Assembly: GCF_002243645.1 (NCBI RefSeq)
Contig: NZ_CP017704.1
Coordinates: 597,501 to 661,500, forward strand
From: Peribacillus simplex NBRC 15720 = DSM 1321
GTDB lineage: Bacteria; Bacillota; Bacilli; Bacillales; DSM-1321
Reading direction: 5' to 3'
DNA: 64,000 nucleotides
Position 1 is the stretch's first letter. Each line of letters starts with the position of its first letter. A model generated the notes under the pieces. It made no database searches. It saw only the letters and a program-made list of their open reading frames with translations, and had not been told where the DNA came from. Made by a program: the position numbers and the translations under genes. Below are positions 1,483 through 24,424 of the stretch, piece by piece.

Positions 1483-1491
1483 AGGTCAACC
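1463..1491 (-). promoter_or_regulatory. Likely sigma-A promoter for IS110 copy 1 leader
   Basis: On the minus strand, TTGACC is followed after 16 nt by TATTAT (or after 17 nt by ATTATA). The -35 lies in the arm of the flanking hairpin, so expression may depend on the insertion site. Confidence 0.5.
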
Positions 1492-1571
1492 AGTAATTTT
1501 TACTGGTCAACCTTATAATACGAACGCACCCGTTAGTTCATTAAGAAAAGCGATTCTTATTAAAGAATCGC
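1484..1571. repeat. Dispersed hairpin repeat, copy 1 (two hairpins)
   Basis: A long hairpin (1484-1512, arms of GGTcaACCAGTAA type) is followed by the conserved GCACCCGTTAGTT core, CATTAAGAAAA, and then a second hairpin with 9-bp arms GCGATTCTT/AAGAATCGC (1550-1571). The same core recurs near 2857, 5835, 21036, 23507 and 24412 with different hairpin sequences. Confidence 0.75.
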
Positions 1572-1662
1572 GCCCTTTAATGGAACACCTCTATTACCAC
1601 TCAAAAATTCCCTTGATCCATTTTTAAATTTCAGATGTACTCTATCTTTTGGACATAAAAAC

Positions 1663-1691
1663 ACCCCTTTAGAGGATATTATCCAAAGGGG
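1663..1691 (-). terminator. Rho-independent terminator after the RHH operon
   Basis: CCCCTTT and AAAGGGG arms; on the minus strand they are followed by TGTTTTTA. It lies about 50 nt past the stop of the gene ending at 1743. Confidence 0.6.
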
Positions 1692-1732
1692 TAAAACGGT
1701 GTAACTTTATTATAAACATCGTGACTTTATTT
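1691..1732. repeat. Two 20-21-bp iterons
   Basis: Two tandem copies of a motif of the form ATAAACnnTnnnACTTTATTT (1691-1711 and 1712-1732). Related copies occur at 7681-7741 beside a broken serine recombinase. They could be recombinase subsites or plasmid iterons; function unknown. Confidence 0.5.
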
Positions 1733-1742
1733 CAAAGCCACA

Positions 1743-2249
1743 TCATTTTCCCTTTAATTCAGCTAAATAGTGCCTTACGGCACTTTCAACTAGTTCATAA
1801 ACCGTCCTATCATGAATGATTGCTTGTATTTTTAGTTCCTTCATAAGTTCAACATCCATATCGAATGAAGAACGTTTTCTTATAACGTTGGTTCGTTCTA
1901 TGGTTGGTGCTGATTGTTCGTTCGCTTGTTTGAGCTGTTCTTTACCACGTTTTATGCCAACGTTAGAACGTTGGTTGGTATCGTTAATAGGTTCTTTATT
2001 TACATTAGTTGAAACGTTCGCTTTTGCTTTTCCTTCTGTTGCAAAGTCATAAATAAGCTGCTCTTGTACCGTTTCCTCGTCACCTTCACCAACGAAATAC
2101 CAGCCTTTTTCGCCTGAATTTCTATACTCATAACCAGCTTTTTTCAATGCTTTTCTTAGTAATTTTTCTGAAAGATGAACATCAGCCTTTTTGGCAATAT
2201 TCGCTGGTGTATCAGTTTTAATTAACTCCAAGATTTCCCCGATTTTCAT
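1743..2249 (-). CDS. Ribbon-helix-helix DNA-binding protein, plasmid-like
   Basis: A 168-residue protein with two recognisable parts. Residues 1-58 (MKIGEILELIKTD...GWYFVGEG) look like a small helical DNA-binding or adaptor domain. A low-complexity Asn/Thr/Lys linker follows, and residues 125-166 (RKRSSFDMDVELMKELK...AVRHYL) match a ribbon-helix-helix fold. Proteins of this arrangement occur on Bacillus plasmids and integrated elements, probably as copy-number or partition regulators. The start overlaps the stop of the gene at 2246-2431 in an ATGA arrangement, so the two are co-translated. It looks like a stranded plasmid module. Function inferred only. Confidence 0.65.
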   Translation of the reverse strand: MKIGEILELIKTDTPANIAKKADVHLSEKLLRKALKKAGYEYRNSGEKGWYFVGEGDEETVQEQLIYDFATEGKAKANVSTNVNKEPINDTNQRSNVGIKRGKEQLKQANEQSAPTIERTNVIRKRSSFDMDVELMKELKIQAIIHDRTVYELVESAVRHYLAELKGK

Positions 2250-2431
2250 TTAGTGCGCTCACGGGAAAACCAATACTTTGTTTTGATATTTCGATAAGTC
2301 CCAATGTCTTTGATCAGATCGGCAATAAGATCATAACCGCAATATGTGTGCCTCATCGTGCTAAATTCATCTAATGTGACATAATCATCACTCTTTAATT
2401 CAACGTGACACTCTCCACAACAAATCGCCAT
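2246..2431 (-). CDS. Small Cys-rich hypothetical protein
   Basis: A 61-residue protein preceded by a strong GGAGGTG ribosome-binding site 6 nt from the ATG. It has CCGEC near the N-terminus and HTYCGY in the middle, which could form a small zinc site. It overlaps the downstream ribbon-helix-helix gene by 4 nt, so the pair is an operon. I do not recognise the family; association with plasmid-type regulators suggests a mobile-element accessory gene. Confidence 0.6.
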   Translation of the reverse strand: MAICCGECHVELKSDDYVTLDEFSTMRHTYCGYDLIADLIKDIGTYRNIKTKYWFSRERTK

Positions 2432-2750
2432 ATCAACACCTCCAAAAAGTATATTGATATATTCGTCGAAACTTGGTGGCTATCCTTCTTTCGTACAAAA
2501 AAACAGGTCTATTGACGGTCCTTTAATGTTTGTTAGAAATAGCCGCCTGTGAAGCTTTGAAAATAAGTTTGATAAAAAAATACCTAACAAGCTGTACGAA
2601 GACACAAAGATAAGTACATTGGGGACATGAATTTGAGTACATAGAGTTATTAATCCACTCAAAACCGCACCAATGCAATCTCTAACTGTTTTGAGATACA
2701 AAATCGAGTACATTATAAACAATACAGTCATATAAATTTATCTGTAAACA

Positions 2751-2785
2751 CAAAGGGGAAGGCAATATCTATACCCTCCCCTTTT
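2751..2785 (+). terminator. Terminator-like hairpin
   Basis: AAGGGGA and TCCCCTTTT arms followed by a T run on the plus strand. No plus-strand gene is evident just upstream, so it may be a relic. Confidence 0.35.
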
Positions 2786-2830
2786 TCGAACACAACTTAT
2801 TTTTTTAATCTTCTTGTATTTTATAAAAAA

Positions 2831-2881
2831 GATTGATCATTTTTTGATCCTTAATCAACTAAAGCACCTGTTAGTAAAAAA
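2831..2881. repeat. Dispersed hairpin repeat, copy 2
   Basis: Hairpin GATCA/TGATC (GATTgATCA...TGATccttAATC) followed by AACTAAAGCACCTGTTAG, a diverged form of the core seen in the other copies. Confidence 0.55.
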
Positions 2882-3060
2882 CTTTATATTCAGAAAATAC
2901 AGCACCTAGAAGAACGATAGCGTAGCAAATAGTCCGCAGATTTTGGACTCTCACCTCTTCCTTTTTTCATCAAAATGAGTCGCCATGCTGAAACTTTATA
3001 TTCACGTTGTATTTGACTTTATTGCCATCCTGCTGCTTTAATTTTGGGATCAATTAGCAA

Positions 3061-3090
3061 AAAAAACACTTACAAATGTAAGTGTTTTTT
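3061..3090 (-). terminator. Terminator of the lipoprotein gene
   Basis: AAAAAACACTTAC-aaat-GTAAGTGTTTTTT, a near-perfect stem flanked by A and T runs, 18 nt past the stop at 3108. Confidence 0.8.
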
Positions 3091-3107
3091 AAACAGATTT
3101 AAAACGT

Positions 3108-3674
3108 TTATTTAATATTAAAAGTTTGTTCACCTAATTTATCGCCACCAATACCTTGTGTAGCAATTAATGTTACAGGTGTTTCTAAATCATCTAATTC
3201 ATAAGCTACTGCATTTTTAACTGTACCATCTTTTTTAATTGTTTCTAATTGAGAATCGAGAAATTGGTCATCTGGAAGGCCACCAACTTCAAGAGTATTG
3301 ACTGCATTAGGATCATTGTCTTGTACTGCTTCAAATACTGCCGTCCATCCAGTAGTAGGGTCAATCTCTTTATCACTTAAATTAGTTGTTTCATACCAAA
3401 TTGCAAATACAGGTTTTTCACCATATTCATTTCCTTTTTCACCAGCTTGAATAACTTTAGTTTCTGTAATTTTAATTTTTAAGTCATTTAATTTTGCTTC
3501 ATTATCTTTGAAATAGAGATCATTATTCGTCTCTTTTTCTTCATTTGTATTTTCTGTAGTTGCTTCTTTATTTGCAGAATCAGAACCATTTTTCGTTCCT
3601 TCTTCTTGATTGCCACAACCAGCAATTATAGATAGTGTTAGTGCAGAAATTAATATTAAAGTTTTTTTCATCAT
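3108..3674 (-). CDS. DUF5067-like secreted lipoprotein
   Basis: A lipoprotein of about 189 residues. The start is one of two adjacent ATGs 8-9 nt after a TAAGGAG ribosome-binding site (about 3684-3690). It has a classic lipobox signal (MKKTLILISALTLSIIAGCGN, split at Cys), then an acidic Asn/Glu/Lys linker, then a beta-rich domain with KPVFAIWYETTNLSDKEIDP and DDLETPVTLIATQ, typical of DUF5067 proteins that resemble immunoglobulin-like extracellular domains. It would sit on the outer face of the membrane. Function unknown. The frame is open far upstream into a DUF4926 domain, but the ribosome-binding site makes an independent start far more likely. Confidence 0.75.
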   Translation of the reverse strand: MMKKTLILISALTLSIIAGCGNQEEGTKNGSDSANKEATTENTNEEKETNNDLYFKDNEAKLNDLKIKITETKVIQAGEKGNEYGEKPVFAIWYETTNLSDKEIDPTTGWTAVFEAVQDNDPNAVNTLEVGGLPDDQFLDSQLETIKKDGTVKNAVAYELDDLETPVTLIATQGIGGDKLGEQTFNIK

Positions 3675-3770
3675 GTTACATTTCTCCTTATGTTTTAATT
3701 TGATTATTATTAGTGTAACTTTTTTTGTGAATATAGTCCTAATGTTTTCTATATTATTCCACCTTTTTTG

Positions 3771-3944
3771 TTGTAAGTAATCTCCTGATATTGCATCCAA
3801 GAATAGAGTTATCCCATCTTTATCAGCAATCTCTACTTCATAATTGTTATCCTCATAAACCTCTAGGATAGTGCCTACTTGTCCTTTAGTAAACTCATTA
3901 TTGGGATCATCTTTAATTATCCTTACAACATCATATTGTTTCAT
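3771..3944 (-). pseudogene. DUF4926 domain without its own stop codon
   Basis: Starting at the ATG at 3944 the frame reads MKQYDVVRIIKDD...KGQVGTILEVYE...YEVEIADKDG, a clear DUF4926 domain of about 58 residues (small SH3-like proteins often found near toxin/immunity loci). No stop follows: the frame runs through an AT-rich stretch of about 33 codons that reads like former intergenic DNA and enters the lipoprotein in frame. The most likely history is loss of the native stop. An intended fusion is unlikely because the lipoprotein signal peptide would become internal. Confidence 0.55.
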
Positions 3945-4084
3945 ATTTTCACCATTTCCCAATTAACCTTGTTAAACTCCCTCAGTTTGATGCGAATATC
4001 TCTCGAATGCTCACTTATTCGCAGGATTTCATACCCCTTGTAATTAGACTTACGGGTAAATGAAATGAGTTCAGATAAGTTAGG

Positions 4085-4389
4085 CTTCGTGAAGGCATAG
4101 TTAAATAAAGGAGTCAGTTACCACTCCACATTTTACCATATAATGTACATCTCCATGCCGCCCCTGGAGGCTTTCCCTCCCATGTCTCAACGGGTCAATC
4201 GCCCTCTCATTCCTTCGTCATGCCTATCCAAGGGGTGGAGGCCAGTTATGCTAACCTGATGGGTCACTGTGCCCTTTTGTTTAAGAAACCTGGTACTCGT
4301 ACATATTTGAAATCCTACGAATAAGACAACATTCAAAATTAAAGTTAACTATTTTGAATGATACATTCTATATAACTAATGTTTTATTT
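4085..4389 (-). ncRNA. IS110 copy 2 3' non-coding region, structured
   Basis: About 300 nt with no coding capacity downstream of the transposase stop, GC-richer than the flanks, containing several complementary tracts (for example CCGCCCCTGGAGGC and CAAGGGGTGGAGGCC). IS1111-type members of the IS110 family carry the bridge-RNA region on this side. I cannot define its ends or guide loops. Confidence 0.4.
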
Positions 4390-5664
4390 CTATGCTGCTA
4401 ATGGGATTAATACTTGGACTTTATTTGGACAATAAGACTCGTTTCGTCGTGCTATTCCTACAAAAATCCTTGCTAGTTTACCTATGAGTTTCATGATTGA
4501 TTTCATTTTCTTTATCTTCTTTACCTTCACATTATGGGAATGGACGGCCTTAAACTCAGGGTTATTCATCACAAGGCTCATAGTTGCTAAGTAGAGGAAT
4601 CGTCGTAGTCTTGACCTTCCACGCTTTGAAATGACAATCTGACCTTTCCATTTGCCTGAACTTGCTTCAGCTAGATGTAATCCCGCATGCCGCAATAGAG
4701 AGTTTCCGTGAGAGAAACCACTTAGATCTCCTGATTCACCCAGTATCCCGGCTAATGAAATTTCACTTATTCCTTTAATCATAAGTAGTTTTTTTGCAAA
4801 TGGTATTTTGTAGAGAACTTCTTTAACTTGTTGTTCAACTCTTTCGAGTTGTTTGACAGCGAGGTCATATTCCTCTAATAATTGTTCTAAATGGAATTTA
4901 TAAGCATCAAGAGCTTGTCCGGTCCCAATAGAGGATTTTGCTAGATTGATTAGTAATTGAGCCTTCTTGGGTCCTGGTTGTCGTTTCATTAAAGACTTCC
5001 AACCCCTCATGACATCTAGTGTTTCTAGTGAAGATATTTCATCCGGTGTAGGAAATAAACGAAGGGTTGCGATCGCCCCTTTGCACGTTACATCTTTAAA
5101 CACTTGTCTGAGTTCAGGAAAGACCACATCCACCCATCGATTTACTTGATTAATAGACATCACGAGACGTTTAACAATCACATCACGATTAGACATTAGA
5201 ACTCTAAGCTTCTCAAATGATTCTGATGATGGGCGAATAAAGGAATAGTAGCCGTTTTTGACCATATCCGCGATAACGAGCGCATCTTTTTTATCACTCT
5301 TAGATTGGGTATTATCACGATTCTCTTTATTCCTTTTTACTAAGTGGGGATTGACTGTTACAACCTCAATGTTTTGGTTATATAACCATTTTGAAAGGTT
5401 AATCCAGTAATGGCCTGTAGGCTCCATACCTACTATTGCTGCATCTAAGTTTTTTAATCTTTTTAAATCATGAATCCATTTTAATAGTTTAAGGAACCCC
5501 TCTTCATTATTTTCAAATGTAAGAGGCTCTCCAACTACAATTCCACGGAAGTTAACTGCTCTTGCAACGTGTAGTTGTTGAGCGATATCCACACCAACAA
5601 TAAGGTGTGTATCGGAAATTCTTTCTATTAGTTGATTTTGTTTGTCTTGCATTTTAAAATTCAT
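4390..5664 (-). CDS. IS110-family transposase (copy 2)
   Basis: A 424-residue IS110-family transposase, clearly different from copy 1. DEDD residues sit in LIVGVDIAQQLH (N-terminus), VGMEPTGHYW and KSDKKDALVIADM; a coiled-coil linker follows; the C-terminal part has IKGISEISLAGILGESGD, HAGLHLAEASSGKWKG and KRGRSRLRRFLYLA with the serine-containing segment. Intact and possibly active. A long structured non-coding stretch lies on its 3' side, suggesting the IS1111-like arrangement. Its 5' side lies directly against dispersed repeat copy 3. Confidence 0.92.
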   Translation of the reverse strand: MNFKMQDKQNQLIERISDTHLIVGVDIAQQLHVARAVNFRGIVVGEPLTFENNEEGFLKLLKWIHDLKRLKNLDAAIVGMEPTGHYWINLSKWLYNQNIEVVTVNPHLVKRNKENRDNTQSKSDKKDALVIADMVKNGYYSFIRPSSESFEKLRVLMSNRDVIVKRLVMSINQVNRWVDVVFPELRQVFKDVTCKGAIATLRLFPTPDEISSLETLDVMRGWKSLMKRQPGPKKAQLLINLAKSSIGTGQALDAYKFHLEQLLEEYDLAVKQLERVEQQVKEVLYKIPFAKKLLMIKGISEISLAGILGESGDLSGFSHGNSLLRHAGLHLAEASSGKWKGQIVISKRGRSRLRRFLYLATMSLVMNNPEFKAVHSHNVKVKKIKKMKSIMKLIGKLARIFVGIARRNESYCPNKVQVLIPLAA

Positions 5665-5779
5665 AGTAGGGCTTCCTCCTTAAGACTCTGAGTTAGATTG
5701 GACTCTATACTCGTATCTTACTGAGGGGCTCTATTTTTTTCAAACCTGATATTTAACGATCTACAGGAATGCTAACCTG

Positions 5780-5856
5780 ACCCTTTAGTTGCATAAGAAA
5801 AAGCTGCCTTAAAGACAGCTCCGATCTTCAGCTAAAGCACCTGTTAGTTCATTAAG
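5780..5856. repeat. Dispersed hairpin repeat, copy 3
   Basis: Left flank TTTAGTTGCATAAGAAAA, hairpin AGCTGcCTT/AAGaCAGCT (5802-5820), then CAGCTAAAGCACCTGTTAG and TTCATTAAG. It directly borders IS110 copy 2. Confidence 0.7.
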
Positions 5857-5861
5857 CTGAG

Positions 5862-6254
5862 TTATAATTTTTCTTCTACATTACACAAATCTTCTGCTAT
5901 CTGCTTTATTCTTTTAAATCCAAGTCCTTCTCTTTGCTCTAAGGATAACGGGTGTTGTGTTGGTTCTAATTCTATAGAAGGACGTAAACCTATTGGGCGA
6001 GTGTGAACCATTGTTTTTAAGTTTAATGTTTCAGGATAACAAGGAATAGAAGTTTGCAGCCAACCAAACATTGGTTTCAAATCCCTTTCTCTGCCTTCAA
6101 CTTCCCAATACTCCATCATTTTATCAAAATTCGTTTCACTTAATGAAACCCAAACATCCCAAATAAAAGGACCTTCCCCATCTATTACTGGAAGTTCAAT
6201 ACAGCCACGAATAAAGAAATACTCATCATCAATAATACACACATCTTCATGCAT
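5862..6254 (-). pseudogene. DUF2199 protein, N-terminally truncated
   Basis: The 130 residues from the first ATG (MHEDVCIIDDEYFFIRGCIELPV...WDVWVSLSETNFDKMMEYW...) match the core and C-terminus of DUF2199, a family usually about 150-180 residues with an N-terminal CxxC zinc motif. The frame stays open upstream for about 14 more family-like codons (FEEQEKRIE) until a TGA, with no start and no CxxC. The N-terminal third has therefore been lost. No function is known for the family. Confidence 0.65.
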
Positions 6255-6373
6255 CTCAATTCGTTTTTCTTGTTCTTCGAATTTGACAGATAATCAGTTA
6301 TACTACTTACTTGTTCAAAATATAACTGAACAGCTTGTTTTCAAAAAATCTATTCAGTTGGGTTGTTCAACGC

Positions 6374-6718
6374 TTATTTTTTCTTACCCACACGATTCAG
6401 AATGCTTTTGTTCAAATTATTGCGTAACTTATCATCCCATCTTTTCGCTTGGTCGATAAGTCCATTGGCGAATGCTGTCACGTCTTCACCTGTCAATTCC
6501 AATACGTCTTTGCCATCTGCCGCACCAGCTTCAAACAAATCAATGAGATCGTACTGGACTCTCAGCATATCCATGCCGCTTCCAGAGGCGAAACCCCACA
6601 TATAGTTGCAGATTTTTTTATAGGCTTCTGGGTAGTCGCCTGGCAAAGCTTCCACACGCGCCATCATTTCTTTATATTCTTTTTTGTCGTCAAGTATCTT
6701 TTTGATGAAATTTACCAT
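6374..6718 (-). CDS. DUF1048 family protein (second of tandem pair)
   Basis: A 114-residue helical DUF1048 protein (MVNFIKKILDDKKEYKEMMARVEALPGDYPEAYKKI...FEAGAADGKDVLELTGEDVTAFA). The DUF1048 fold is a small all-alpha domain of unknown function, usually encoded just downstream of a PadR regulator. It shares the KEY, LP.DY, Y.W.F and FEA.A.GK.VL..TGEDV.AFA positions with its neighbour at 6737-7114, so the two arose by duplication. Third gene of a PadR-DUF1048-DUF1048 operon. Confidence 0.85.
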   Translation of the reverse strand: MVNFIKKILDDKKEYKEMMARVEALPGDYPEAYKKICNYMWGFASGSGMDMLRVQYDLIDLFEAGAADGKDVLELTGEDVTAFANGLIDQAKRWDDKLRNNLNKSILNRVGKKK

Positions 6719-6736
6719 GGTATTTAACCTCCTACC

Positions 6737-7114
6737 TTATTTTTTATTCGTCCATATTTTTATTTGCTCTTCAACTCTACTCTCAATTTCTTTTTTCAAA
6801 TCTACTTGCCCTCCTAATATACTCGCCGATTCTCCATCTAGTTTTGAGAGAGCCATCAATTCGTCGGCAAATGCCGCCACGTCTTCACCGGTAACATCTA
6901 GCACATGCTTGCCTTCTGCTGCACTGGCTTCAAACAGTTCATACAAATTGATGATTTCTTCACCAAATCCATATCCGAAATTCCACATGTACTTTTGAAT
7001 CTTTTTGAACACAAAGACATAATCTTTCGGTAGGGAATTTACTTTTTTCATAAATGCTTTGTATTCCTTCTTGCTTTCTAAATCGCCAATGATTAGCTCT
7101 ATAAATTTCTTCAT
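6737..7114 (-). CDS. DUF1048 family protein (first of tandem pair)
   Basis: A 125-residue DUF1048 protein (MKKFIELIIGDLESKKEYKAFMKKVNSLPKDYVFVFKKI...LFEASAAEGKHVLDVTGEDVAAFADEL). It starts 4 nt after the PadR stop and is followed 18 nt later by its paralogue. Cytoplasmic, no membrane segment. In other Firmicutes such proteins sit between PadR regulators and membrane or transport genes; here no transporter follows within the operon. Role unknown. Confidence 0.85.
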   Translation of the reverse strand: MKKFIELIIGDLESKKEYKAFMKKVNSLPKDYVFVFKKIQKYMWNFGYGFGEEIINLYELFEASAAEGKHVLDVTGEDVAAFADELMALSKLDGESASILGGQVDLKKEIESRVEEQIKIWTNKK

Positions 7115-7118
7115 ATTA

Positions 7119-7448
7119 TTACTCCCCCTTTAGGATATTAATTTTTGATGAAACAAAATTCCATTTTTTCCAAAATTGTTCGAGTTCCTCGTGTCCTGCA
7201 TTATTTAATGAATAAAATTTGCGAGGAGGACCCATTTCAGAACGCTTTTTCTCGATATTCACTAATTCTTTCTTTTCCAATCGCACCAAAATGGTGTAGA
7301 CCGTTCCCTCAACAACCTCTGTAAAGCCCATTTCATTGAGGCGGCGGGTAATCTCGTAGCCGTAAGAATCTCCCCGGCTGATAATTTCCAGCACACAACC
7401 TTCCAACACACCTTTGAGCATTTCTGTTAAATTTTCCATAGCATACAC
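7119..7448 (-). CDS. PadR-family transcriptional regulator
   Basis: A 109-residue PadR repressor: winged-helix domain with LEGCVLEIISRGDSYGYEITRRL, GTVYTILVRLEKKELV, and the wing EMGPPRKFYSLNNAGHEEL, with a short C-terminal dimerisation helix. PadR proteins repress their own operon and respond to phenolics, antibiotics or other small molecules. It is first in an operon with two DUF1048 genes. The inverted repeat at 7480-7497 upstream is a likely autoregulatory operator. Confidence 0.9.
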   Translation of the reverse strand: MYAMENLTEMLKGVLEGCVLEIISRGDSYGYEITRRLNEMGFTEVVEGTVYTILVRLEKKELVNIEKKRSEMGPPRKFYSLNNAGHEELEQFWKKWNFVSSKINILKGE

Positions 7449-7479
7449 CTCCTAAGCTAACAAGTTATACAGATATTCA

Positions 7480-7497
7480 GTATTAATAAGTACTGGT
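7480..7497. promoter_or_regulatory. Candidate PadR operator
   Basis: CAGTA-N8-TACTG inverted repeat about 35-50 nt upstream of the padR start. PadR operators commonly have short arms separated by 8 nt. Confidence 0.45.
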
Positions 7498-7671: not shown

Positions 7672-7680
7672 ATCATTTTT

Positions 7681-7741: not shown

Positions 7742-7775
7742 TAAAACTACAACAATGCCACAAGAAAAAAGACGA

Positions 7776-8433: not shown

Positions 8434-8461
8434 TATACGATATACACAAGGGAGATGTCAT

Positions 8462-15319: not shown

Positions 15320-15435
15320 CATTTTACTTCTCTTCCCTTCTCTATCTCAAAGTTCGGTTTTTGAATATATTTATTGCGTGTCATCTGCACAAAGAAATAC
15401 GCACCTATCAGCGTCCATCCGCAAACTGCATACAT
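15319..15435 (-). CDS. Possible 38-residue membrane peptide coupled to gabD
   Basis: From an ATG at 15435 the frame reads MYAVCGWTLIGAYFFVQMTR then NKYIQKPNFEIEKGREVK and stops at a TGA that overlaps the gabD ATG (ATGA). One hydrophobic helix followed by a charged tail. No strong ribosome-binding site in front of the ATG. It could be a genuine small membrane protein or the tail of a lost transporter gene; the 4-nt overlap with gabD favours past or present translation. Confidence 0.4.
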   Translation of the reverse strand: MYAVCGWTLIGAYFFVQMTRNKYIQKPNFEIEKGREVK

Positions 15436-15585
15436 GATTCCATGTTAAAAATCCGATCCCACGGTTTTTTTAGTTATTCAAGAGATTCCACCCTTTACTG
15501 GTCAAAATTGGTTGCTCATAACGAAAACAGACGCCCTATTTTCCATCTTTAGGCTTCATTCAGTATTCTCTCAATGGAAGAGCTT

Positions 15586-16992
15586 TCATTTTCCCTCAAG
15601 TATCTTCTTATTTACGGTTTGAACAAAATTCATTTTCTTTTTTTTATTTCTAATAAATACAAAGTACGACACTAGTACCAAACCCGTTATGCAAAATGTA
15701 AGGAAAAATTGTAAACGCATTGATGGGATAAAAGCTTGTGCAACAAATATCGTAAATAACATAAATATTGTTAAATATGTTAGATAAGGGAACAACCACA
15801 TTTTCACTTTTAATAATCCGGGATTCTCTTTCTCAATTTTCTTTCGAGAACGCAAGTGAGATATAGCAATAAAAATATACATAATCATTGTTACACCCCC
15901 AGAACTACTAGCTAAAATGACAAAGAATTGATCTGCAGCTACAAATTTTAGTAATGTGAACATGTATGCAGCTACTACGCACGCTAATATTGCTCCAATT
16001 GGGGCCCCTCGTTTATTTACTTTTGAAAATAATTTTGGTGCATCCCCTTTTTTAGATAAGGAGTATAGTATACGCGAACTAGTATACATACCTGTATTTA
16101 AAATCGAAAGTAACGAAACGAAGATTACAATATTCATGAATTGACCAGCTGCAGGTAAACCTGCCATATCAAATATACTTGCATAAGGTGCCTTGAATAA
16201 GCCTGCTTCACTTTTTGGAAGTAAGAATACTAGTATTATCGAAGAGCCAACGAAGAAAATCAGCAATCTCCAAACAACACTATTAATTGCCTTAATGATA
16301 TTTTTTTCTGGATTTTCAGATTCTCCTGCTGCAATAGCTGCTACTTCACTTCCTGAAAGAGAAAATGTTATAAATACAATACTTAAAAATACAGGGAGAA
16401 TTCCTTGAGGGAAAAATCCTCCATAGGAATTAATGTTATCCATGCCAGGCGATTCCACCCCAGGCATAATGCCTAGGAACATTGCCGTACCTACACATAA
16501 AAATGAAATAATGGTTGCCACTTTAATAAATGCTAACCAATATTCAAATTCCCCATAAGATTTAACTGAAAATATGTTAGTGAACATCATAATAATAGGG
16601 AAACATAAACTTGCTGTCCACATTGGGATAGACGGTACCCATTGATGGACCATAGCTCCTAATATAGTTGCCTCAATTACAATGATAATAATCCAGTTAA
16701 ACCAATACAACCAACCAATGGTATAGCCAGCCCAGGGACCTATTGCCTGATGAGCATAAGTTGAAAATGACCCACTATCTGGATTTAACACGGCCATCTC
16801 ACCTAGCATTCGCATAACTAGCACTACCATGATTGTTGCCAATAGATACGATAAGATAGCTGCTGGTCCTGTATCATTTATAATCGTTCCTGTACCCACA
16901 TATAATCCTGATCCTATTACTCCACCAATAGATATCATTGTTATGTGTCTTGTTTTCAAACCTTTTTGAAGTTCATTTTTCTGAATAGCCAT
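15586..16992 (-). CDS. gabP: GABA/amino-acid permease
   Basis: A 468-residue APC-family amino acid permease (GabP/AnsP type) importing GABA or a related amino acid by proton symport. The consensus start of TM1, HITMISIGGVIGSGLYVGTG, is near residue 20, and about 12 transmembrane segments follow. I place the start at the ATG at 16992, where AAGGAG abuts it; the frame is open further upstream into the regulator gene. The start lies within the last codons of the sigma54 regulator, so translation is coupled. The Glu in SGSEVAAIAAGE is the usual substrate-region motif. Confidence 0.85.
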   Translation of the reverse strand: MAIQKNELQKGLKTRHITMISIGGVIGSGLYVGTGTIINDTGPAAILSYLLATIMVVLVMRMLGEMAVLNPDSGSFSTYAHQAIGPWAGYTIGWLYWFNWIIIIVIEATILGAMVHQWVPSIPMWTASLCFPIIMMFTNIFSVKSYGEFEYWLAFIKVATIISFLCVGTAMFLGIMPGVESPGMDNINSYGGFFPQGILPVFLSIVFITFSLSGSEVAAIAAGESENPEKNIIKAINSVVWRLLIFFVGSSIILVFLLPKSEAGLFKAPYASIFDMAGLPAAGQFMNIVIFVSLLSILNTGMYTSSRILYSLSKKGDAPKLFSKVNKRGAPIGAILACVVAAYMFTLLKFVAADQFFVILASSSGGVTMIMYIFIAISHLRSRKKIEKENPGLLKVKMWLFPYLTYLTIFMLFTIFVAQAFIPSMRLQFFLTFCITGLVLVSYFVFIRNKKKKMNFVQTVNKKILEGK

Positions 16993-18355
16993 CTCCTTCA
17001 ATCCTCTCGTGTATGAACTTCTTAACCTTTCTAGTTGCTGACGATTGACTGATGCCAAGAACTTTAGCAATTTTATAAGTGGATTTATATTGTTCGTAGG
17101 CTTGTACTATCATTTTTTGTTCCACTTCCTCGATCACTTCAGGAAGTGTGGTCCCCTTATTAGCTAATTCCTGATGAAGTATTTCAAGTGGTAAATCATC
17201 TATCGTTACTATAGCATCACTTGTTACTACTAAACGTTCAACCATGTTTTCCAATTCACGAATATTACCTTTCCATTCATAGTCTAAAAAGACATTCAGC
17301 ACCTTTGGGGAAAAGCGGACACTTGTACCGTACAACTGATTAAAATGTTCTAAAAAATAATAAGTTAACGGGATAATGTCTTCTTTTCTCTCACAGAGAG
17401 GCGGTATATGAATAGGTATCACATTTAACCGATAGTATAAGTCCTTCCGAAACGTGCCTTTCTCGGCCATCTCAGCCAGGTTTTTGTTTGTAGCGGCAAT
17501 AATCCTGATGTTCAGGGAAATAGGAACTTTCCCTCCCACCGGTCGGATTTGCTTTTCCTGCAAAACATGTAGCAGTTTGCTTTGTGCTGGCAGGGACAAT
17601 TCGCCAATTTCATCTAAAAACAACGTACCGTTATTAGATAGCTCAATCAGCCCTTTCTTCCCTTCCCGAAAAGCACCGGTGAATGTTCCGCCTTCATATC
17701 CAAATAATTCTGACTCTATTAATTGTTCCGGAAGTGCTGCACAATTGACTTCATTTAATATTTCATTTCTTCTATCACTAAGCTGATGGATGGATCGAAC
17801 GATTTTACTCTTGCCAACTCCCGTCTCTCCAAGCAACAATACGGTAGTATTGACTTTCGCAATCTTGCGAATAGTTACCATCACTCGTTCCATTTTCTCA
17901 CTTTTGGAAATTAATCCTTCCACTTCAAACGGTTCATGCAATACTTTTTTGTAGCCCGCTAACAAATCTTCCATTTCTTCTACTCTATGTCTTAGTTGCA
18001 TTAGTTCCGTTAAATCACGGGAATAGCTGATGACACTCTTTAGCTCTCCTTGATCATTAAAAACCGGTCTCGTCCGCACATGCAGATAGCGGCCAGAACT
18101 AGTCATTTGAAACAATTCTATCGGCTCCTGTCCTTCAATTACTTTTAAGGTGGCAGAAGGATAAAAAATGCCCATTTTCTCTAAATCCACTACATGCTTC
18201 CCAACTAATTCACCGGCCGACATTTTGTAGTTTTTCTCGCATGTAGAATTAACACGAATCACGACACCACTGGCATTGGTCACAAAAATTTCATCGAAAG
18301 ACGATTCAAATATATCAAATAATTCTTCGTTCACAGCATCTTGATGTTCATTCAT
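16973..18355 (-). CDS. PAS-containing sigma54-dependent activator of the gab genes
   Basis: A 460-residue bacterial enhancer-binding protein of the RocR/BkdR type: N-terminal PAS domain (residues about 10-120, FDEIFVTNASGVVIRVN), AAA+ domain (Walker A GETGVGKS, Walker B GTLFLDEIGE, arginine-finger region FRKDLYYRLNVIPI), and a C-terminal HTH (TYKIAKVLGISQSSATRKVKKF). The sigma54-contact loop reads GTFTGA instead of canonical GAFTGA. It should sense GABA or a derivative and activate SigL promoters such as that at 19864-19882. It overlaps gabP and follows gabT. Confidence 0.9.
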   Translation of the reverse strand: MNEHQDAVNEELFDIFESSFDEIFVTNASGVVIRVNSTCEKNYKMSAGELVGKHVVDLEKMGIFYPSATLKVIEGQEPIELFQMTSSGRYLHVRTRPVFNDQGELKSVISYSRDLTELMQLRHRVEEMEDLLAGYKKVLHEPFEVEGLISKSEKMERVMVTIRKIAKVNTTVLLLGETGVGKSKIVRSIHQLSDRRNEILNEVNCAALPEQLIESELFGYEGGTFTGAFREGKKGLIELSNNGTLFLDEIGELSLPAQSKLLHVLQEKQIRPVGGKVPISLNIRIIAATNKNLAEMAEKGTFRKDLYYRLNVIPIHIPPLCERKEDIIPLTYYFLEHFNQLYGTSVRFSPKVLNVFLDYEWKGNIRELENMVERLVVTSDAIVTIDDLPLEILHQELANKGTTLPEVIEEVEQKMIVQAYEQYKSTYKIAKVLGISQSSATRKVKKFIHERIEGDGYSEK

Positions 18356-18447
18356 GGCAAGCTTCCTTCCAAATATATAGAATTTACATATTATATCAAA
18401 AACCTATATAGAAGATAAGCCTGCCATTGGACTACCTCATTAGAAAA

Positions 18448-19806
18448 TTATGCTTGCACCGTCAAAGCGGAATAAGCTGCTTCCAGGGACTCTTCTAAAA
18501 TGTCCAAACCCTCTGCCAATTGCTCATTCGTTATTACTAAAGGCATTAATACCCGCAGAACATTTCCGAAAGCTCCAGCACTTAATAACAACAAACCACG
18601 ATTATTTGCTTCTTTAATAAGATGGTTCACGATGTCTTTATTTGGTTCTTTTGTTTCGCGGTTTTTGACGAATTCCATCGCGCACATGGAACCAAGTCCA
18701 CGAACATCACCGATCACGTCGTATTTTTCAGCTAACTTACGGAAGCGATTCATGACTACTTCACCAAGTTGTTCTCCGCGTTCGTTTAGTTTTTCTTCTT
18801 CAATAATATCAAGAACTGCAAGTGCTGCTGCACAACCAAGCGGGCTTCCTGCATAAGTTCCTCCTAATTCACCTGGAGAAGAAACCTCCATGATTTCTTT
18901 ACGACCAATAACTCCACTAATTGGCACCCCTGCTGCTAGTGATTTAGATACAGTAAGTAAATCAGGTACGATATCGAAGTGCTCGATGGCGAAATAACGT
19001 CCTGTACGGCTGAACCCAGCTTGGATTTCATCAGAGATAAACAAAATTCCATGTTCTTGACATAAGTCATAAACGGCTTTAACAAAGCGTTTAGATGGAA
19101 CGATAAATCCACCTTCACCTTGAACTGGTTCCATAACTACTGCCGCAACGCTTTCTGGCGCTACATCATTGATAAAGAACTCCTTGAACTGATCGATGAT
19201 GAAGTCTTCATATTGATCTTCTGTTGTGCCGCTAGGACGACGGTAATTGTAAGGATACGGCGCTTTATATACTTCTGGAGCAAATGGGCCGAATTCAAAT
19301 TTATAAGGTTTCACTTTACTTGTCATCGTCATAGTCATTAATGTACGACCGTGGTAACCGCGTGAAAAGGAAATAATACCAGAACGTTTTGTGTATTTAC
19401 GAGCAATTTTCACTGCATTTTCCACTGCTTCAGCGCCGCTGTTTAATAGAATGACTTGTTTATCATGGTCGCCAGGTGCAATCTTAGCCAATTTTTCTGC
19501 CAACTCGATATATGGTTCATACATCATCACGTTAAAGCCAGTGTGAATGTATTCATCTACTTGTTTGTGAAGAGCTTCTTTTACTTTCGGATGGCAATGG
19601 CCAACGTTAATCGTACCAATCGCACCTACAAAATCGATAAAGGTATTTCCATCAACGTCATGAATAAGAGCGCCTTCTGCTGATTGTACAAAAGTAGGTA
19701 CGCCATTGCTGACACCCTTTGGCACACTTGAATTTCTTCTTTCCACTAATTGCTTTGCTTTAACTCCTGGTAGATTTCCTGAAACTCTTGCAAACTTCTT
19801 TGTCAT
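18448..19806 (-). CDS. gabT: 4-aminobutyrate aminotransferase
   Basis: A 452-residue class III PLP aminotransferase converting GABA and 2-oxoglutarate to succinic semialdehyde and glutamate. The ATG at 19806 follows AAGGAGAGATTAAGA. Visible: FVGAIGTINVGHCHP near the N-terminus, NSGAEAVENAVKIAR (PLP phosphate binding), FSRGYHGRT, VMEPVQGEGGF, the SDEIQAGFSRTG cofactor Asp motif and the Schiff-base Lys in SKSLAAGVP. Full length. First gene of the cluster, directly behind a sigma54 promoter. Confidence 0.95.
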   Translation of the reverse strand: MTKKFARVSGNLPGVKAKQLVERRNSSVPKGVSNGVPTFVQSAEGALIHDVDGNTFIDFVGAIGTINVGHCHPKVKEALHKQVDEYIHTGFNVMMYEPYIELAEKLAKIAPGDHDKQVILLNSGAEAVENAVKIARKYTKRSGIISFSRGYHGRTLMTMTMTSKVKPYKFEFGPFAPEVYKAPYPYNYRRPSGTTEDQYEDFIIDQFKEFFINDVAPESVAAVVMEPVQGEGGFIVPSKRFVKAVYDLCQEHGILFISDEIQAGFSRTGRYFAIEHFDIVPDLLTVSKSLAAGVPISGVIGRKEIMEVSSPGELGGTYAGSPLGCAAALAVLDIIEEEKLNERGEQLGEVVMNRFRKLAEKYDVIGDVRGLGSMCAMEFVKNRETKEPNKDIVNHLIKEANNRGLLLLSAGAFGNVLRVLMPLVITNEQLAEGLDILEESLEAAYSALTVQA

Positions 19807-19863
19807 TCTTAATCTCTCCTTCTCTTTATTAACATTAGGGGTTGTATACCTGTACAAATACTA

Positions 19864-19882
19864 ATGCAAGAAACGTGCCAAA
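19864..19882 (-). promoter_or_regulatory. Sigma54 (-24/-12) promoter of gabT
   Basis: Minus strand TTGGCAC-gtttc-TTGCA, an exact match to the TGGCAC-N5-TTGCA consensus, 60 nt upstream of the gabT start. It pairs logically with the sigma54 activator encoded two genes into the cluster. Confidence 0.9.
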
Positions 19883-19940
19883 TTATTTTATTAGTCAGAT
19901 ACCTATATTTTATGAATTATTAATGAATAGCAAACAAAAA

Positions 19941-19985
19941 AAATAAGTCACTAATGAATTGAATAATTCTTAAGTGACTTATTTT
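19941..19985. terminator. Inverted repeat, possible bidirectional terminator
   Basis: AATAAGTCACT and AGTGACTTATTTTT arms separated by 17-18 nt, between gabT and the IS110 relic. Confidence 0.5.
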
Positions 19986-20040
19986 TAATCATTTGTATTA
20001 ATGAACCAAAAACCTGTAGAGCTTTTTATAACCTTTAAAA

Positions 20041-20901
20041 GAGGATATTCGTGATTTACGAGATCTTACTCGTTATCGAAAAAAATTGATTCATCATCGC
20101 ACATCAGAGCAGAATCGCATTCACAAAATTCTTCAAGATGCTAATATCAAGCTAACATCCGTTCTATCAGACATTTTTGGTGTATCGGGACGCCGTATCC
20201 TTGAAGCGATTCTAAATGGTGAAAAGATAGAGACCGATGGTCTTCGAAAAATGGTGGATTGGCGAACAAAAGCAAGTATTACTGACATTGCCAGTGCAAT
20301 TAATGGTCGTATTCGCCGTCATCATCGTGATATGTTGCGTTATCATTGGGAGCATATGGGTTATTTAGAAGAAACCATAGAAGAATTAGAAAAACAAATT
20401 GATCAACTCCTGTCCCCTTATCGTAAGGAAGTAGAATTATTGGATGGTATACCTGGTGTGAACAAAGCTGCGGCAGCTACTTTTATTGCGGAGATGGGTG
20501 TTGATATGTCCGTATTTAAGTCAGCTAAACATCTTGCATCATGGGCTGGTGTGAGTCCCGGAAATTATGAAAGTGCCGGTAAAAAAACAAGTAAAACCAC
20601 ACAAGGAAACAAAGCATTAAAAACGATAGCCGTAGAGTGTGTACTGGCAACCTCAAGGCAAAATAATCGAATTGCTTCACATCGAAAAAGTATTACCAAA
20701 CGACAGGGAATGAAGGGACGAATCGCTTCTGCTCATGTACTATTGACGATTGCTTACAACATCTTAAAAACAGGAGAACCCTATCATGAACTAAGGTCAA
20801 ATTACCTTGAAGAAAAACAAATGAACAAAGAATTAAAAATGATCGAATACCTAAAAAAGAAAGGCTATACAATCCCTCCATCTGAACAACAAACTGCATA
20901 A
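20041..20901 (+). pseudogene. IS110-family transposase, 5' truncated
   Basis: The C-terminal two thirds of a third IS110-type transposase: EDIRDLRDLTRYRKKLIHHR begins the recognisable homology at about 20041, followed by the coiled-coil linker, LDGIPGVNKAAAATFIAEMG and ASWAGVSPGNYESAGKK, then a normal C-terminus (RQGMKGRIASAHVLLTIAYNIL). The DEDD nuclease half (about 130 residues) is missing and there is no start. Different subgroup from copies 1 and 2. Its 3' side lies about 100 nt from dispersed repeat copy 4. Confidence 0.88.
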
Positions 20902-21001
20902 CAAGTTAAATAACGACATAGTACACTTAGTCCTTCAAAAAATTAGAATTATGGTGGGCTTATTTTAGTATGGTCTTTCACTAATGTGTTTTCATACAAA
21001 A

Positions 21002-21046
21002 AGGGCCGCCGCATCGACCCTCTTATTGAAGTAAAGCACCCGTTAG
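21002..21046. repeat. Dispersed hairpin repeat, copy 4
   Basis: Hairpin AGGGcCG/CGaCCCT, then TCTTATTGAAGTAAAGCACC and CGTTAG; the closest match to copy 7 at 24378-24424. Confidence 0.7.
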
Positions 21047-21197
21047 CCATCCATGAATCGCAAAGAATGAAAATGGTTAGGAAGTGTCCATACTGATACT
21101 GTCCTTAATCCAGTCAACCCTAATCCATAAACTAATTAATTAACGCTCTCCTCTTTTTTTGTCATTTTTCCATTCTTAAAAAAACTTATTTTCATGG

Positions 21198-21233
21198 TAG
21201 TTCATTAAGAAAAAAGGCCACCAATTGGCAGCC
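21198..21233. repeat. Dispersed hairpin repeat, copy 5 (left half)
   Basis: Left flank TAGTTCATTAAGAAAAAA and hairpin GGCcaCCAA/TTGGcaGCC. Confidence 0.6.
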
Positions 21234-21355
21234 TCATTCTCTATCTGTATTCATATAATGGCCCTTATTGAAGGCTATGCAAAACTAAACTTACCTCCCT
21301 CAAAAACTTATTCCTCTTATACAAATGAGTGCTTATAAGCCTTTTTGCCATGACC

Positions 21356-22132
21356 CTATATAACTTTCTCTTTTTTCTCTCTTGTTTTAACTAAAAAATA
21401 AGCAGTAATCAAGGCAGTAATAGGAATTACCAGGGCTACACCTGTTCCAGCACAAAATATAGTGATCATTTCAGCACTAAATATTTTTGAGTTTATGATT
21501 TCTCCAACAGAATAGGATAAATCTTTAAACCATATAAGCAATGCCAAATAGCCTCCAAAGAAAGCAAAAAATAATGTATTCGTAGATGTTCCTAAGATAT
21601 CCCTCCCAATACTTAATCCAAATGTGAATAAATCTTTCTTGCTAATGGATGGATGGTGATGAAACATTTCTCGCATGGGAGATGAAATGGCCATGGCTGT
21701 ATCGATAATGGCGCCAATAGTACTCATAATAATTACTGAAGCTCCAATTTTAACAAAATCTACTCCAATATAAAGGGAAAAGATGCTAAGCTCTTCTATT
21801 TCTTCTTCACCAAAACCTTGTATCATCGCATTTTCCGTCACAATGACAATAAAAAAGAGTACAATAACAATCGTGATAATGGTAGAAATGAATGCTGTTT
21901 TTGTTGTACTGTTCACTTCGTTAATAAAAAATAAATTAATATAACTAATCACCGTACATGCAATCAATGTTACGATATACGGATCATTATTTGGATTTGT
22001 CATAAAAATGATGGTAAAAAGTAACACACCAAAGTTTAGGAACAAAGCAAAAAATGAACGTGCCCCTTTTTTTCCACCAATCAAGATCATCAATATTAAT
22101 AATATGAACGCTAGCAACACTAATACATTCAT
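21356..22132 (-). CDS. YibE/F family membrane protein (second)
   Basis: A 258-residue YibE/F-family integral membrane protein with seven or so transmembrane helices and the family motifs DTAMAISSPMREM, IGRDILGTSTNTLFFAFFGGYLALL and AGTGVALVIPITALI. Function unknown in any organism; the helices and conserved polar residues suggest a transporter or channel. It begins at a TAATG junction with the upstream YibE/F gene, so both are made together, probably as a complex. Confidence 0.85.
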   Translation of the reverse strand: MNVLVLLAFILLILMILIGGKKGARSFFALFLNFGVLLFTIIFMTNPNNDPYIVTLIACTVISYINLFFINEVNSTTKTAFISTIITIVIVLFFIVIVTENAMIQGFGEEEIEELSIFSLYIGVDFVKIGASVIIMSTIGAIIDTAMAISSPMREMFHHHPSISKKDLFTFGLSIGRDILGTSTNTLFFAFFGGYLALLIWFKDLSYSVGEIINSKIFSAEMITIFCAGTGVALVIPITALITAYFLVKTREKKEKVI

Positions 22133-23268
22133 TATCTTTCCCTCTTTCGATTAATGAAAAAAATAGAAATATATAGACCTATCGGAATAGTTAACACGAT
22201 TCCAATACCCCCAGCTAGGGCACGGGCCAATTCCAATGTAAGGTTCATGGAAAGGGTAAATCCCAATGCAGAAGCATTTTTCAAATACAAAATAATCATA
22301 GGTATGGAGCCACTTATATAGGCAAAAAACAAAATATTTGTCATAGTTCCCATAATGTCTTTTCCAATCTCTAATCCTGAAGTTTTAAGTGCTTTTACTG
22401 ATATGTGGTTATTCTTTTCATACAACCCAAAAATCGAAGAAGACATGGTAATGGCTATATCCATTACGGCTCCTAAAGATCCGATAAATAACCCTGCCAT
22501 AAACACCATTTTATAAGGACGAGTGATAAATTGCATTTCTTCATATCGAAGGCCATTTTCGGAAGTTAACCACATAACAAGATAAGTAATGAACAGCGAT
22601 AAAAAAGTCCCTAACAGTGTTGCAATAATAGCTGCATAGGTTTTTTCATTAAAACCGTTAACGAGTAAAAGGGAAAGAACCGTAAATAGAATGATACTTA
22701 TACTGCATATCAATACCAAACCAATGTCTGATGTATTCAAATAAAAATCTAATGCATATGACAATAATACGGCATTGACTGCCAAACTTATAATAGAAAA
22801 CAGTCCTTGCTTTTTTCCAACGATAAGTAATGTCAAGATAAAAACCCATGCTACAATCAACACATATTTATCACGCTTTACGTCTTTTATGGTTCCAGTT
22901 AACTCTGAATTTTCTTCTGTCTTTGTATCAATTGAAACAAATAAATCATTTCCAACTCGATATTCTTGATCATAAGCTCCGGATGAGGAATATTCATTCT
23001 TTAAATGAATAAGTTTTCCTTTTTCTTCACCATTTTGTAATTCGGCTATTATACTCTGGGTAAATAGTCGATCTTCATTTTGATACATATCATTCAATTC
23101 AGTTGTATTTTCCAGATTTGTTTTGATGACTTTGGCTATTGGAAGTTCATAGAATGAATAATTGTGATGAACAAAGAAAACAGAGGTGACAAAACAAAGT
23201 GCTATGATGGCGTACAAAGAAACATGCTTGTAACCCATTTTTTTAAATTTATTTACGATAACATTCAA
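22132..23268 (-). CDS. YibE/F family membrane protein (first)
   Basis: A 378-residue YibE/F-family protein. The TTG start at 23268 lies 7 nt after GGAGG. It has an N-terminal transmembrane helix, an extracytoplasmic domain of about 100 residues, then about seven helices with the same motifs as its partner (GAVMDIAITMSSSIFGL, IGKDIMGTMTNILFFAYISGSIPMIIL, ALAGGIGIVLTIPIGL). The extracytoplasmic domain distinguishes it from the downstream, shorter paralogue. Expression probably passes a terminator-like hairpin in its leader (23299-23341). Confidence 0.85.
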   Translation of the reverse strand: MNVIVNKFKKMGYKHVSLYAIIALCFVTSVFFVHHNYSFYELPIAKVIKTNLENTTELNDMYQNEDRLFTQSIIAELQNGEEKGKLIHLKNEYSSSGAYDQEYRVGNDLFVSIDTKTEENSELTGTIKDVKRDKYVLIVAWVFILTLLIVGKKQGLFSIISLAVNAVLLSYALDFYLNTSDIGLVLICSISIILFTVLSLLLVNGFNEKTYAAIIATLLGTFLSLFITYLVMWLTSENGLRYEEMQFITRPYKMVFMAGLFIGSLGAVMDIAITMSSSIFGLYEKNNHISVKALKTSGLEIGKDIMGTMTNILFFAYISGSIPMIILYLKNASALGFTLSMNLTLELARALAGGIGIVLTIPIGLYISIFFINRKRER

Positions 23269-23298
23269 AATAAAACCTCCAAATATCGGGTGGGCAAA

Positions 23299-23341
23299 AA
23301 AGGCAGGATGGAGCCAGAATTGACTGACCTCCGCCCTGCCT
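23299..23341 (-). promoter_or_regulatory. Terminator-like leader hairpin (attenuator candidate)
   Basis: On the minus strand a stem GGCAGG-GGAG...CTCC-CCTGCC with a 14-nt loop is followed by TTTTTT, and then, 25 nt later, by the GGAGG of the YibE/F operon. A rho-independent terminator lying between promoter and first gene suggests conditional read-through. No known riboswitch recognised. Confidence 0.55.
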
Positions 23342-23432
23342 TACTAGTATTTGATTTTTTTATCTTATCATGAATAAATTTAATTTGCGAAAAAAAAATC
23401 CAATTGGTAACCAAGGGGATTTTTCTATTGGG

Positions 23433-23472
23433 TTTTGAAAGTATGATTATTGTAATAATCGTACTTTCAAAA
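23433..23472. repeat. 40-bp inverted repeat
   Basis: Arms of 19 bp (TTTTGAAAGTATGATTATT and its complement with one mismatch) with a 2-nt centre, immediately next to dispersed repeat copy 6. Confidence 0.85.
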
Positions 23473-23519
23473 GGCCACCAATTGGCGGCCTTCTTATGGC
23501 GCTAACGCACCCGTTAGTT
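23471..23519. repeat. Dispersed hairpin repeat, copy 6
   Basis: Hairpin AAGGCCaCCAA/TTGGcGGCCTT followed by TCTTATGGCGCTAAC and the GCACCCGTTAGTT core. Confidence 0.75.
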
Positions 23520-23730
23520 TAAGTATAATACTTCACAAATTTATTGAAATAAGTTCAAAAATGAATAGAAAAATACAGTATAAATTTAGTTAATGGTTAA
23601 CAAACAAAATAGACAAATCAATACAAAATATTTGATAGGGAATTTGTTTTTTTCTTCTTAAAGGCACCTGTTTTTATATCAATACTTAAAATAAAAAGTA
23701 AAGATATTAGAAAGAAAGAAACTATTTCTT

Positions 23731-23838
23731 TCATAGAAAACAAAACAGTCTACTTGATATTCCTATGAGAAGCCCTATCCCTACTAAACACCCCAAAAAC
23801 ATTGTAATATATTCTGGTTTAAACATTATTTTCTTCAT
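23731..23838 (-). CDS. Possible 35-residue membrane peptide
   Basis: Reads MKKIMFKPEYITMFLGCLVG then IGLLIGISSRLFCFL. A GAGAGGG site precedes the ATG by about 7 nt, there is one hydrophobic helix, and a GAAAGAAA/TTTCTTTC hairpin follows the stop. Single-helix membrane peptide; not recognised. The rest of 23520-23986 shows nothing else. Confidence 0.4.
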   Translation of the reverse strand: MKKIMFKPEYITMFLGCLVGIGLLIGISSRLFCFL

Positions 23839-23986
23839 TAGTAATCCCTCTCTGCCTTACGCTATCTATCCTAGCTTTAAACTTAAAAATAGTTCTTAGA
23901 CCTATTACTTTATGTTGCAAAAATCCCAACCTTAACTGCCCCGAACATCTGTTAATTGAAGAAAGGTTATCGGTATTATCTAAAAC

Positions 23987-24304
23987 TTAAACACCAAATA
24001 TCACCGTTCCTAGAATCATATATACAAAAGGAAAAATTAATAAAACCGAATTTACAATGATAGCACCAAACGTCAAAACATCCTTTTGTATTTTATGTGC
24101 TTTTGAAGCGAAGAAAAGACCAAAAAGACAAAATACTAAAGGAAAAAATATAGGCAATCCCTGTATCTTTTCGAGTGTAACTATATCAAACAGAAAATTC
24201 ACAATGAAAATTAGAGGAACAAAGAATAACAAATAAGAAACAATAATAAATGTCTTTTGCACAATAAGCCCCTTTGAAAAGTTATGTTCCTTAAATTCTA
24301 ACAT
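23987..24304 (-). CDS. Small hypothetical membrane protein
   Basis: A 105-residue protein with three hydrophobic helices (TFIIVSYLLFFVPLIFIVNFLF; FFPLVFCLFGLFFAS; FGAIIVNSVLLIFPFVYMILGTVIF). The ATG is weakly supported by a GGGGCTT-like site. No family recognised. Monocistronic between repeats. Confidence 0.55.
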   Translation of the reverse strand: MLEFKEHNFSKGLIVQKTFIIVSYLLFFVPLIFIVNFLFDIVTLEKIQGLPIFFPLVFCLFGLFFASKAHKIQKDVLTFGAIIVNSVLLIFPFVYMILGTVIFGV

Positions 24305-24377
24305 AAAACAAGTTATATTTGGGTCAATTTCCCATTACTTTATGCAACTATCCTGCCCCGATAGTTCCATAACAAAA

Positions 24378-24424
24378 AGAGCTGCCGAAGCAACTCTCTT
24401 ATTGAAGTAAAGCACCCATTAGTT
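24378..24424. repeat. Dispersed hairpin repeat, copy 7
   Basis: Preceded by CTGCCCCGATAGTTCCATAA, then hairpin AGAGcTGC-cgaa-GCAaCTCT, CTTATTGAAGTAAA and GCACCCATTAGTT. The most complete copy, with both flanks. Confidence 0.75.

Follow-up and report, generated by a model that had tools for sequence, protein, structure and literature searches.

A 64,000-nucleotide stretch of the Peribacillus simplex NBRC 15720 = DSM 1321 chromosome (NZ_CP017704.1, positions 597,501-661,500 of 5,645,783 bases in one contig) carries a dispersed repeat in which fixed flanks enclose a hairpin of variable sequence. The stretch is called the window below and the chromosome G000. The repeat is very probably an attC equivalent, that is, the site at which cassettes recombine in an integron-like system of Bacillaceae, with a Xer-like recombinase of ~280 aa as the likely enzyme. 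This reading draws on the anatomy of the site, its one-way arrays, covariation within it, cassettes displaced between arrays and between species, and an attI-like site beside the recombinase gene, all taken from sequence. The first-pass annotation of the window had described a modular hairpin unit in seven copies; what goes beyond it is the finding that the unit bounds gene cassettes, the candidate recombinase encoded elsewhere in the genome, and a sense strand of the site opposite to the one used there.

In the sense direction, the site runs from AACTAAC-GGGTGC-GTTAGCT through a variable hairpin, usually with a T-run behind it, to CTTATGGAACTAAC-GGGGCAG-GTTAGTT, often continued past GTTAGTT by GAATAAG. 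Two palindromic simple sites (1L-2L and 2R-1R) enclose the hairpin, and the 57 sites that were aligned measure 72-86 bp each. An excerpt of PMC3053210 describes attC as having its binding sites in two pairs (1L-2L and 2R-1R), which an inverted-repeat segment separates, over 57-141 bp; the 57 aligned sites show this layout, their variable inverted repeat standing between the two simple sites, and fall within that range of lengths. With up to 2 mismatches, the core AAAGCACCCGTTAGTT matches the chromosome 88 times, against 2 for the pattern read backwards. A covariance model built from the 57 sites of the P. simplex chromosome (R1) found, at E 1e-5, 98 sites in G000 and 114 in a relative, G031; at least 4 of the 98 are counted double, as most of the final 15.8 kb duplicates 15.4-31.5 kb at 99.5-99.8% identity. 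These near-identical contig ends (G000:C1:5630001-5645783 and 15409-31462), which differ by small indels, look like the untrimmed overlap of a circular assembly. The repeat was present at all seven places first listed, and its core stands far above chance, but five of the seven copies are partial, so that both flanks are not found in every copy, and only 5770-5849 and 24346-24424 are whole sites.

The sites form clusters spaced 0.3-2 kb (median 813 bp over 206 intervals) and point one way. All 252 neighbouring pairs less than 5 kb apart are co-oriented, and a second set of neighbouring sites gave 343 in the same orientation vs 4 in the opposite one. In 123 of 159 intervals, the longest open reading frame (ORF) of at least 100 aa follows the sense direction, and a cassette usually consists of a single gene with one site after it. 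Pfam families on 131 cassette ORFs are of the usual integron kinds, such as GNAT, glyoxalase and NUDIX: GNAT acetyltransferases are the commonest (Acetyltransf_1 in 11), and glyoxalase, DinB, NUDIX, isochorismatase and APH also occur among the 25 families listed of 76. A PADLOC scan of the same 131 ORFs gave few matches, with three models hitting one ORF each. The proposal of a modular unit that can be chained through its GTTAGTT halves held up, as neighbouring sites share one simple site (window 1523-1571; G000 4909162/4909221).

Cassette movement was followed in a set made up of six recombinase loci and of stretches taken from eight genomes of the genus (some of the loci come from the same genomes); in it, 38 interval families recur at 85% identity or more. 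The neighbours of the recurring interval differ on both sides in 54 of all 64 pairs and on one side only in 3, while the remaining 7, testable on one side only, differ there. With the recombinase-bearing family set aside, together with three families that have a gene of the IS110 type of insertion sequence (IS), there remained 34 families and 44 pairs (41 between genomes, 3 within G000), with 34 differing on both sides, 3 on one side and 7 testable on one side only. Neighbours thus differ on both sides in 34 of the 37 pairs testable on both (54 of 57 with the excluded families kept), and no pair had both neighbours conserved. Movement also crosses genera: a cassette of G000 recurs in Neobacillus niacini with other neighbours (92% identity over 620 nt), and Peribacillus glennii shares another with N. 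niacini (93.6% identity over 533 nt). At cassette boundaries, identity starts or stops in the right simple site (13 left-boundary pairs, one from the recombinase family, and 3 right-boundary pairs, counting only pairs that line up), which would place the crossover within this simple site and no finer.

The likely enzyme is a tyrosine recombinase of 279 aa encoded outside the window at one end of the 4.88-4.91 Mb array (G000:C1:4875483-4876319). A single simple site, AACTATCGGGGCAGGTTAGTT, lies 34 bp after its stop codon. A profile scan of species genomes returned 346 relatives, of which the best 80 were analysed with their flanks. A simple site stands within 160 bp of the gene in 51 of these 80 loci, against a mean of 0.42 and a maximum of 2 in shuffled sequence, in two layouts. 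The site begins 31-35 bp after the stop codon in 7 loci, as in G000; in the second layout it lies mostly ~70-90 bp before the gene, and the gene is directed away from the array in the manner of a classical integron. Among loci with at least two sites, 43 of 45 have all of them one way, the exceptions being L081 and L126; four far-end sites of L081 (13892-17134) oppose the other ten, which suggests an inversion. The five residues that we take to be catalytic (R138, H228, R231, H254 and Y263) do not vary across 11 members. Two other short recombinases of G000, at 591 kb and 2,313 kb, were rejected as candidates on falling outside the clade in the tree. At E 1e-90, the recombinase was found in 36 of 199 genomes and 24 of 97 genera of a sample of the order. 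It is also plasmid-borne, for instance on P. simplex pSHB26 and Sporosarcina psychrophila pSP10-266k, and the best matches in 47 phage records are less than 60% identical. Gracilibacillus timonensis and Virgibacillus indicus (L127, L129) have nearly the same sequence downstream of the gene, a hint of recent transfer between genera.

Taken together, the sites would recombine at the right simple site (AACTAAC-GGGGCAG-GTTAGTT) with each other and with the single attI-equivalent simple site beside the recombinase gene, and cassettes would be inserted, excised and shuffled in a fixed orientation. Like attC, the entire site most likely folds in single-stranded form, and such folding would let the arms change yet stay paired. 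That the ~280 aa enzyme does the recombining, and does so on folded single strands, is what we infer; covariation and replication orientation bear indirectly on the use of folded strands.

The hairpin arms do vary while staying paired, as first noted: a stem of at least 7 was found in 73% of 311 distinct hairpin regions vs 29% of shuffles. The centres of most copies are paired, and the selection on the hairpin then suggested is borne out. Calling the arms entirely different in each copy overstated the case, as 271 hairpins with a stem of at least 6 have 126 distinct loop-closing hexamers, the commonest common to 28. RNAalifold on a plain MAFFT alignment returned no structure because the hairpin types sit in different registers, and the named structure was therefore counted instead. 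Its covariation score on the 57 G000 sites was 0.186, with 0.150 in shuffles (none of 500 as high) and at most 0.102 with slid partners. On 150 sites, drawn from 173 matches in 71 recombinase loci and aligned by a fit to R1 that leans towards the named structure, the score was 0.218 vs 0.117 in shuffles and at most 0.064 slid. By this score the named pairing covaries in both sets. In the larger set, all 7 hairpin pairs and 6 of the 7 inner-arm pairs show two-sided changes, those of the inner arms being the best hint that the whole site folds.

The sites are also oriented with respect to replication. With dnaA at 2.57 Mb and the terminus assumed at the antipode, all 66 sites among those listed for G000 (of 98) run with the replication fork, four of the 66 lying in the redundant contig end. 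In G031, 77 of the 84 sites listed (of 114) do so, or 81 of 84 if the terminus is moved to 2.65 Mb after the fact. The bottom strand of chromosomal integrons of Vibrio lies on the leading-strand template, according to an excerpt of PMC11023631. The bottom strand here would lie there too. Since bacterial genes are generally biased towards co-orientation with replication, this orientation is support, not proof.

By model score, the recombinase stands nearer to Xer than to IntI. Its best family scores are for XerD (195 bits) and archaeal XerA (192 bits), and its nearest solved structures are of the XerC/XerD and XerA kind. In contrast to these proteins, it stays below the curated cut-offs (XerD 195.4 vs 329.6 bits; XerC 191.7 vs 335.15 bits), forms its own clade and is tied to cassette arrays, whereas Xer recombinases act at a single dif site. 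Curated IntI models also score it far below their cut-offs (TIGR02249 88.1 vs 265 bits; PRK15417 53.5 vs 435 bits). The catalytic R and HxxR are 90-91 residues apart in each of the 22 members, 96-97 in XerD/XerC and 131 in IntI1 of R388, the only one of four IntI rows in which the motif allowed this spacing to be measured; the IntI insertion is therefore taken to be absent from the recombinase. An excerpt of PMC8138268 calls this insertion essential for integrons to function, though its conservation within its subgroup is incomplete. Likenesses to IntI integrons and CALIN (clusters of attC sites lacking integron integrases) comprise the attC-like architecture, the one-way arrays, the attI-like site beside a tyrosine recombinase gene that is often divergent, the kinds of cassette genes, arrays that have no integrase and the orientation with replication known from Vibrio (PMC11023631, in excerpt); the two integron features of an attI beside the gene and a one-way array of mobile cassettes are both present. 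The system differs from IntI integrons in its Xer-like recombinase, in boxes (AACTAAC/GTTAGTT) that lie outside RYYYAAC/GTTRRRY, in the T-run on most hairpins, in the many arrays per chromosome and in its Bacillaceae hosts.

That the system is a true integron of the IntI lineage that has diverged far, we regard as unlikely. A tree of 31 rows places the 22 members and 4 IntI in separate clades (support 100/99 and 100/100), yet a tree joining the two is not rejected (p-AU of 0.309), so parallel origin and far descent are both compatible with it; the shared site architecture and layout also speak for the IntI lineage. Against it stand the missing insertion, the low IntI model score and the core boxes, where RYYYAAC fits 1 of 57 sites and GTTRRRY none of 57 (the triplets AAC and GTT are found in 41 and 25 of the 57). 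The hairpin invites another explanation. The 7 nt after the hairpin include at least 4 T in 195 of 271 cases, and the mirror A-run (at least 4 A) comes before it in 51 of 271; given this excess of T, the hairpin resembles an intrinsic terminator, looks like the cassette gene's own and would presumably end its transcription. That the repeats, intergenic and one per gene, are only a terminator family or one like repetitive extragenic palindromes, kept for ending transcription without any cassette recombination, is nevertheless very improbable, since terminators need neither paired palindromic simple sites nor a simple site beside a recombinase gene nor displaced cassettes. As an attC equivalent, the site would have a hairpin and T-run that double as the cassette terminator. 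A by-product of IS ends, the alternative raised when the repeat was first described, is harder still to credit. IS110-type elements abut several sites and an IS occurs in 3 of 38 repeated interval families, but the 57 whole sites of the model carry no IS, and where IS junctions are found they interrupt the consensus, so the site is the target of these elements.

More can be said for sites that recombine by another enzyme (XerC/XerD or other), with the ~280 aa recombinase and its simple site as a passenger cassette, though we think this improbable. Recombinase genes are often flanked by sites to the left and right within an array, and sites are abundant in genomes that have no such gene. At E 1e-30 the recombinase has no match in G031, for all its 114 sites. 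R1 matches one or more times in 35 of 36 genomes of the genus, far beyond those with the recombinase, and in the order sample 78 of the 163 genomes that lack the recombinase have one site or more. Arrays that stay behind after integrase loss are known, as CALIN. A common simple site whose distance to the gene is fixed, in two fixed layouts, argues against a passenger, as do the higher site counts in genomes with the gene: at least five sites in 13 of 36 recombinase-positive vs 18 of 163 recombinase-negative genomes of the order sample, where the highest counts per genome are lower bounds (at least 25; at least 76 in the 36-genome sample of the genus). Several further results, like the recombinase-less genomes, weigh against an attC-equivalent site served by this enzyme. 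The motif finds no attI-like site in 29 of the 80 recombinase loci, and 18 of the 80 have no site in their flanks at E 1e-2. Seven of the 29 (L112, L114, L120, L121, L124, L148 and L154) show a variant with a GGGCCA spacer after the recombinase stop codon, such as ATCGGGCCATTTAATTG, which is perhaps a third site type. The longest ORF is antisense in 36 of 159 intervals, and 3 of 13 left-boundary pairs have differing letters inside 1R. Counted plainly, pairs with two-sided changes are no more numerous than in shuffles (11 vs 13.6 on 57 sites; 19 vs 19.5 on 150), and when sites were folded singly, one of four examples did no better than its shuffles.

Within the window, R1 gives two whole sites, one clear partial site and weaker others. 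These and the genes named with them lie on the minus strand unless stated otherwise. The site at 5770-5849 is whole (1L-2L, hairpin and 2R-1R; 87 bits, E 3.8e-19), with 1R meeting the end of an IS110-type element, as is that at 24346-24424 (74.3 bits, E 5.3e-16). At 20979-21048 the left simple site and hairpin are kept and the right simple site is lost (24.2 bits, E 0.0014). A partial site at 23469-23519 comprises the left simple site and hairpin (nhmmer 20.7 bits; R1 13 bits, E 0.84). Sequence likeness assigns three others: a remnant at 21197-21233 with hairpin and inner right arm, which has no R1 match at E up to 5; a degenerate site at 2831-2876 (R1 15.6 bits, E 0.19 over 2803-2876); and, at 1523-1571, the left simple site of an IS-cut site, chained to a second hairpin, GCGATTC...GAATCGC, with the AACG junction of the IS end recurring at other sites. 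The interval between sites 21048 and 23469 holds a membrane-protein-like ORF of 378 aa (22132-23268) and, after it, a second of 258 aa (21356-22132). A cassette ORF of 105 aa (23987-24304) lies between sites 23519 and 24346, and one of 130 aa (5862-6254) ends, in the cassette sense, just before site 5770-5849. An Rfam scan of the window at gathering score gave no match.

Both IS110-type elements that end at sites of the window do so near 1523 and 5768. Their transposase ORFs are at 76-1278, for the element cutting the site at 1523, and at 4390-5664, for that abutting 5770-5849; the end of the former element recurs before 8 G000 sites. Elements of the IS1111 group that target attC are known, such as ISKpn4 and ISPst6 (PMC11187229, in excerpt). 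The IS110-type elements here likewise insert at a recurring place of a recombination site; they are parasites of the sites and not the source of the repeat, and their membership of the IS1111 subgroup is putative. By eye, a 271 aa ORF on the plus strand at 20086-20901 is also IS110-like; it abuts the partial site 20979-21048, and its element may have removed the right half of that site. A further motif, TTTAAGTACATTTCTTCACAAA, recurs after the core, right behind GTTAGTT on the strand opposite to sense, at many G000 sites and many recombinase loci, and is perhaps another conserved element, belonging either to the site or to the end of the cassette. Elsewhere in the window, two similar ORFs of 114 aa (6374-6718) and 125 aa (6737-7114) lie in tandem on the minus strand, adjoined by one of 109 aa (7119-7448) that resembles a PadR-type regulator.

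Integrons are extremely rare in Firmicutes, the sole complete one being that of Limnochorda pilosa, with a few CALIN besides, as given in an excerpt of PMC9024848. In our samples, IntI scored above its cut-off in 2 of 398 Bacillota genomes, against 36 of 199 genomes of the order for the Xer-like recombinase. Bacillales genomes were among those screened in PMC11089894, the consulted passage of which gives no Bacillales result. The IntXO-PSL paper (PMC5567495) concerns an engineering tool, and the word integron is absent from the part consulted. Among the papers listed in searches of PubMed Central (PMC), none describes cassette arrays in Bacillaceae, a provisional result as preprints and most subscription journals were outside their scope.

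We tentatively raise, at slightly less than even confidence, a second origin of integrons in Bacillaceae, with a Xer-like recombinase that has no IntI insertion, folded single-stranded sites that double as terminators, arrays spread over many chromosomal loci and plasmids, and the recombining strand on the leading-strand template. If the system works as proposed above, whatever its origin, Gram-positive soil bacteria would have a large and so far unlabelled pool of movable genes, and, because the IntI insertion is absent here, the system would offer a natural test of what an integrase needs in order to use folded attC sites.

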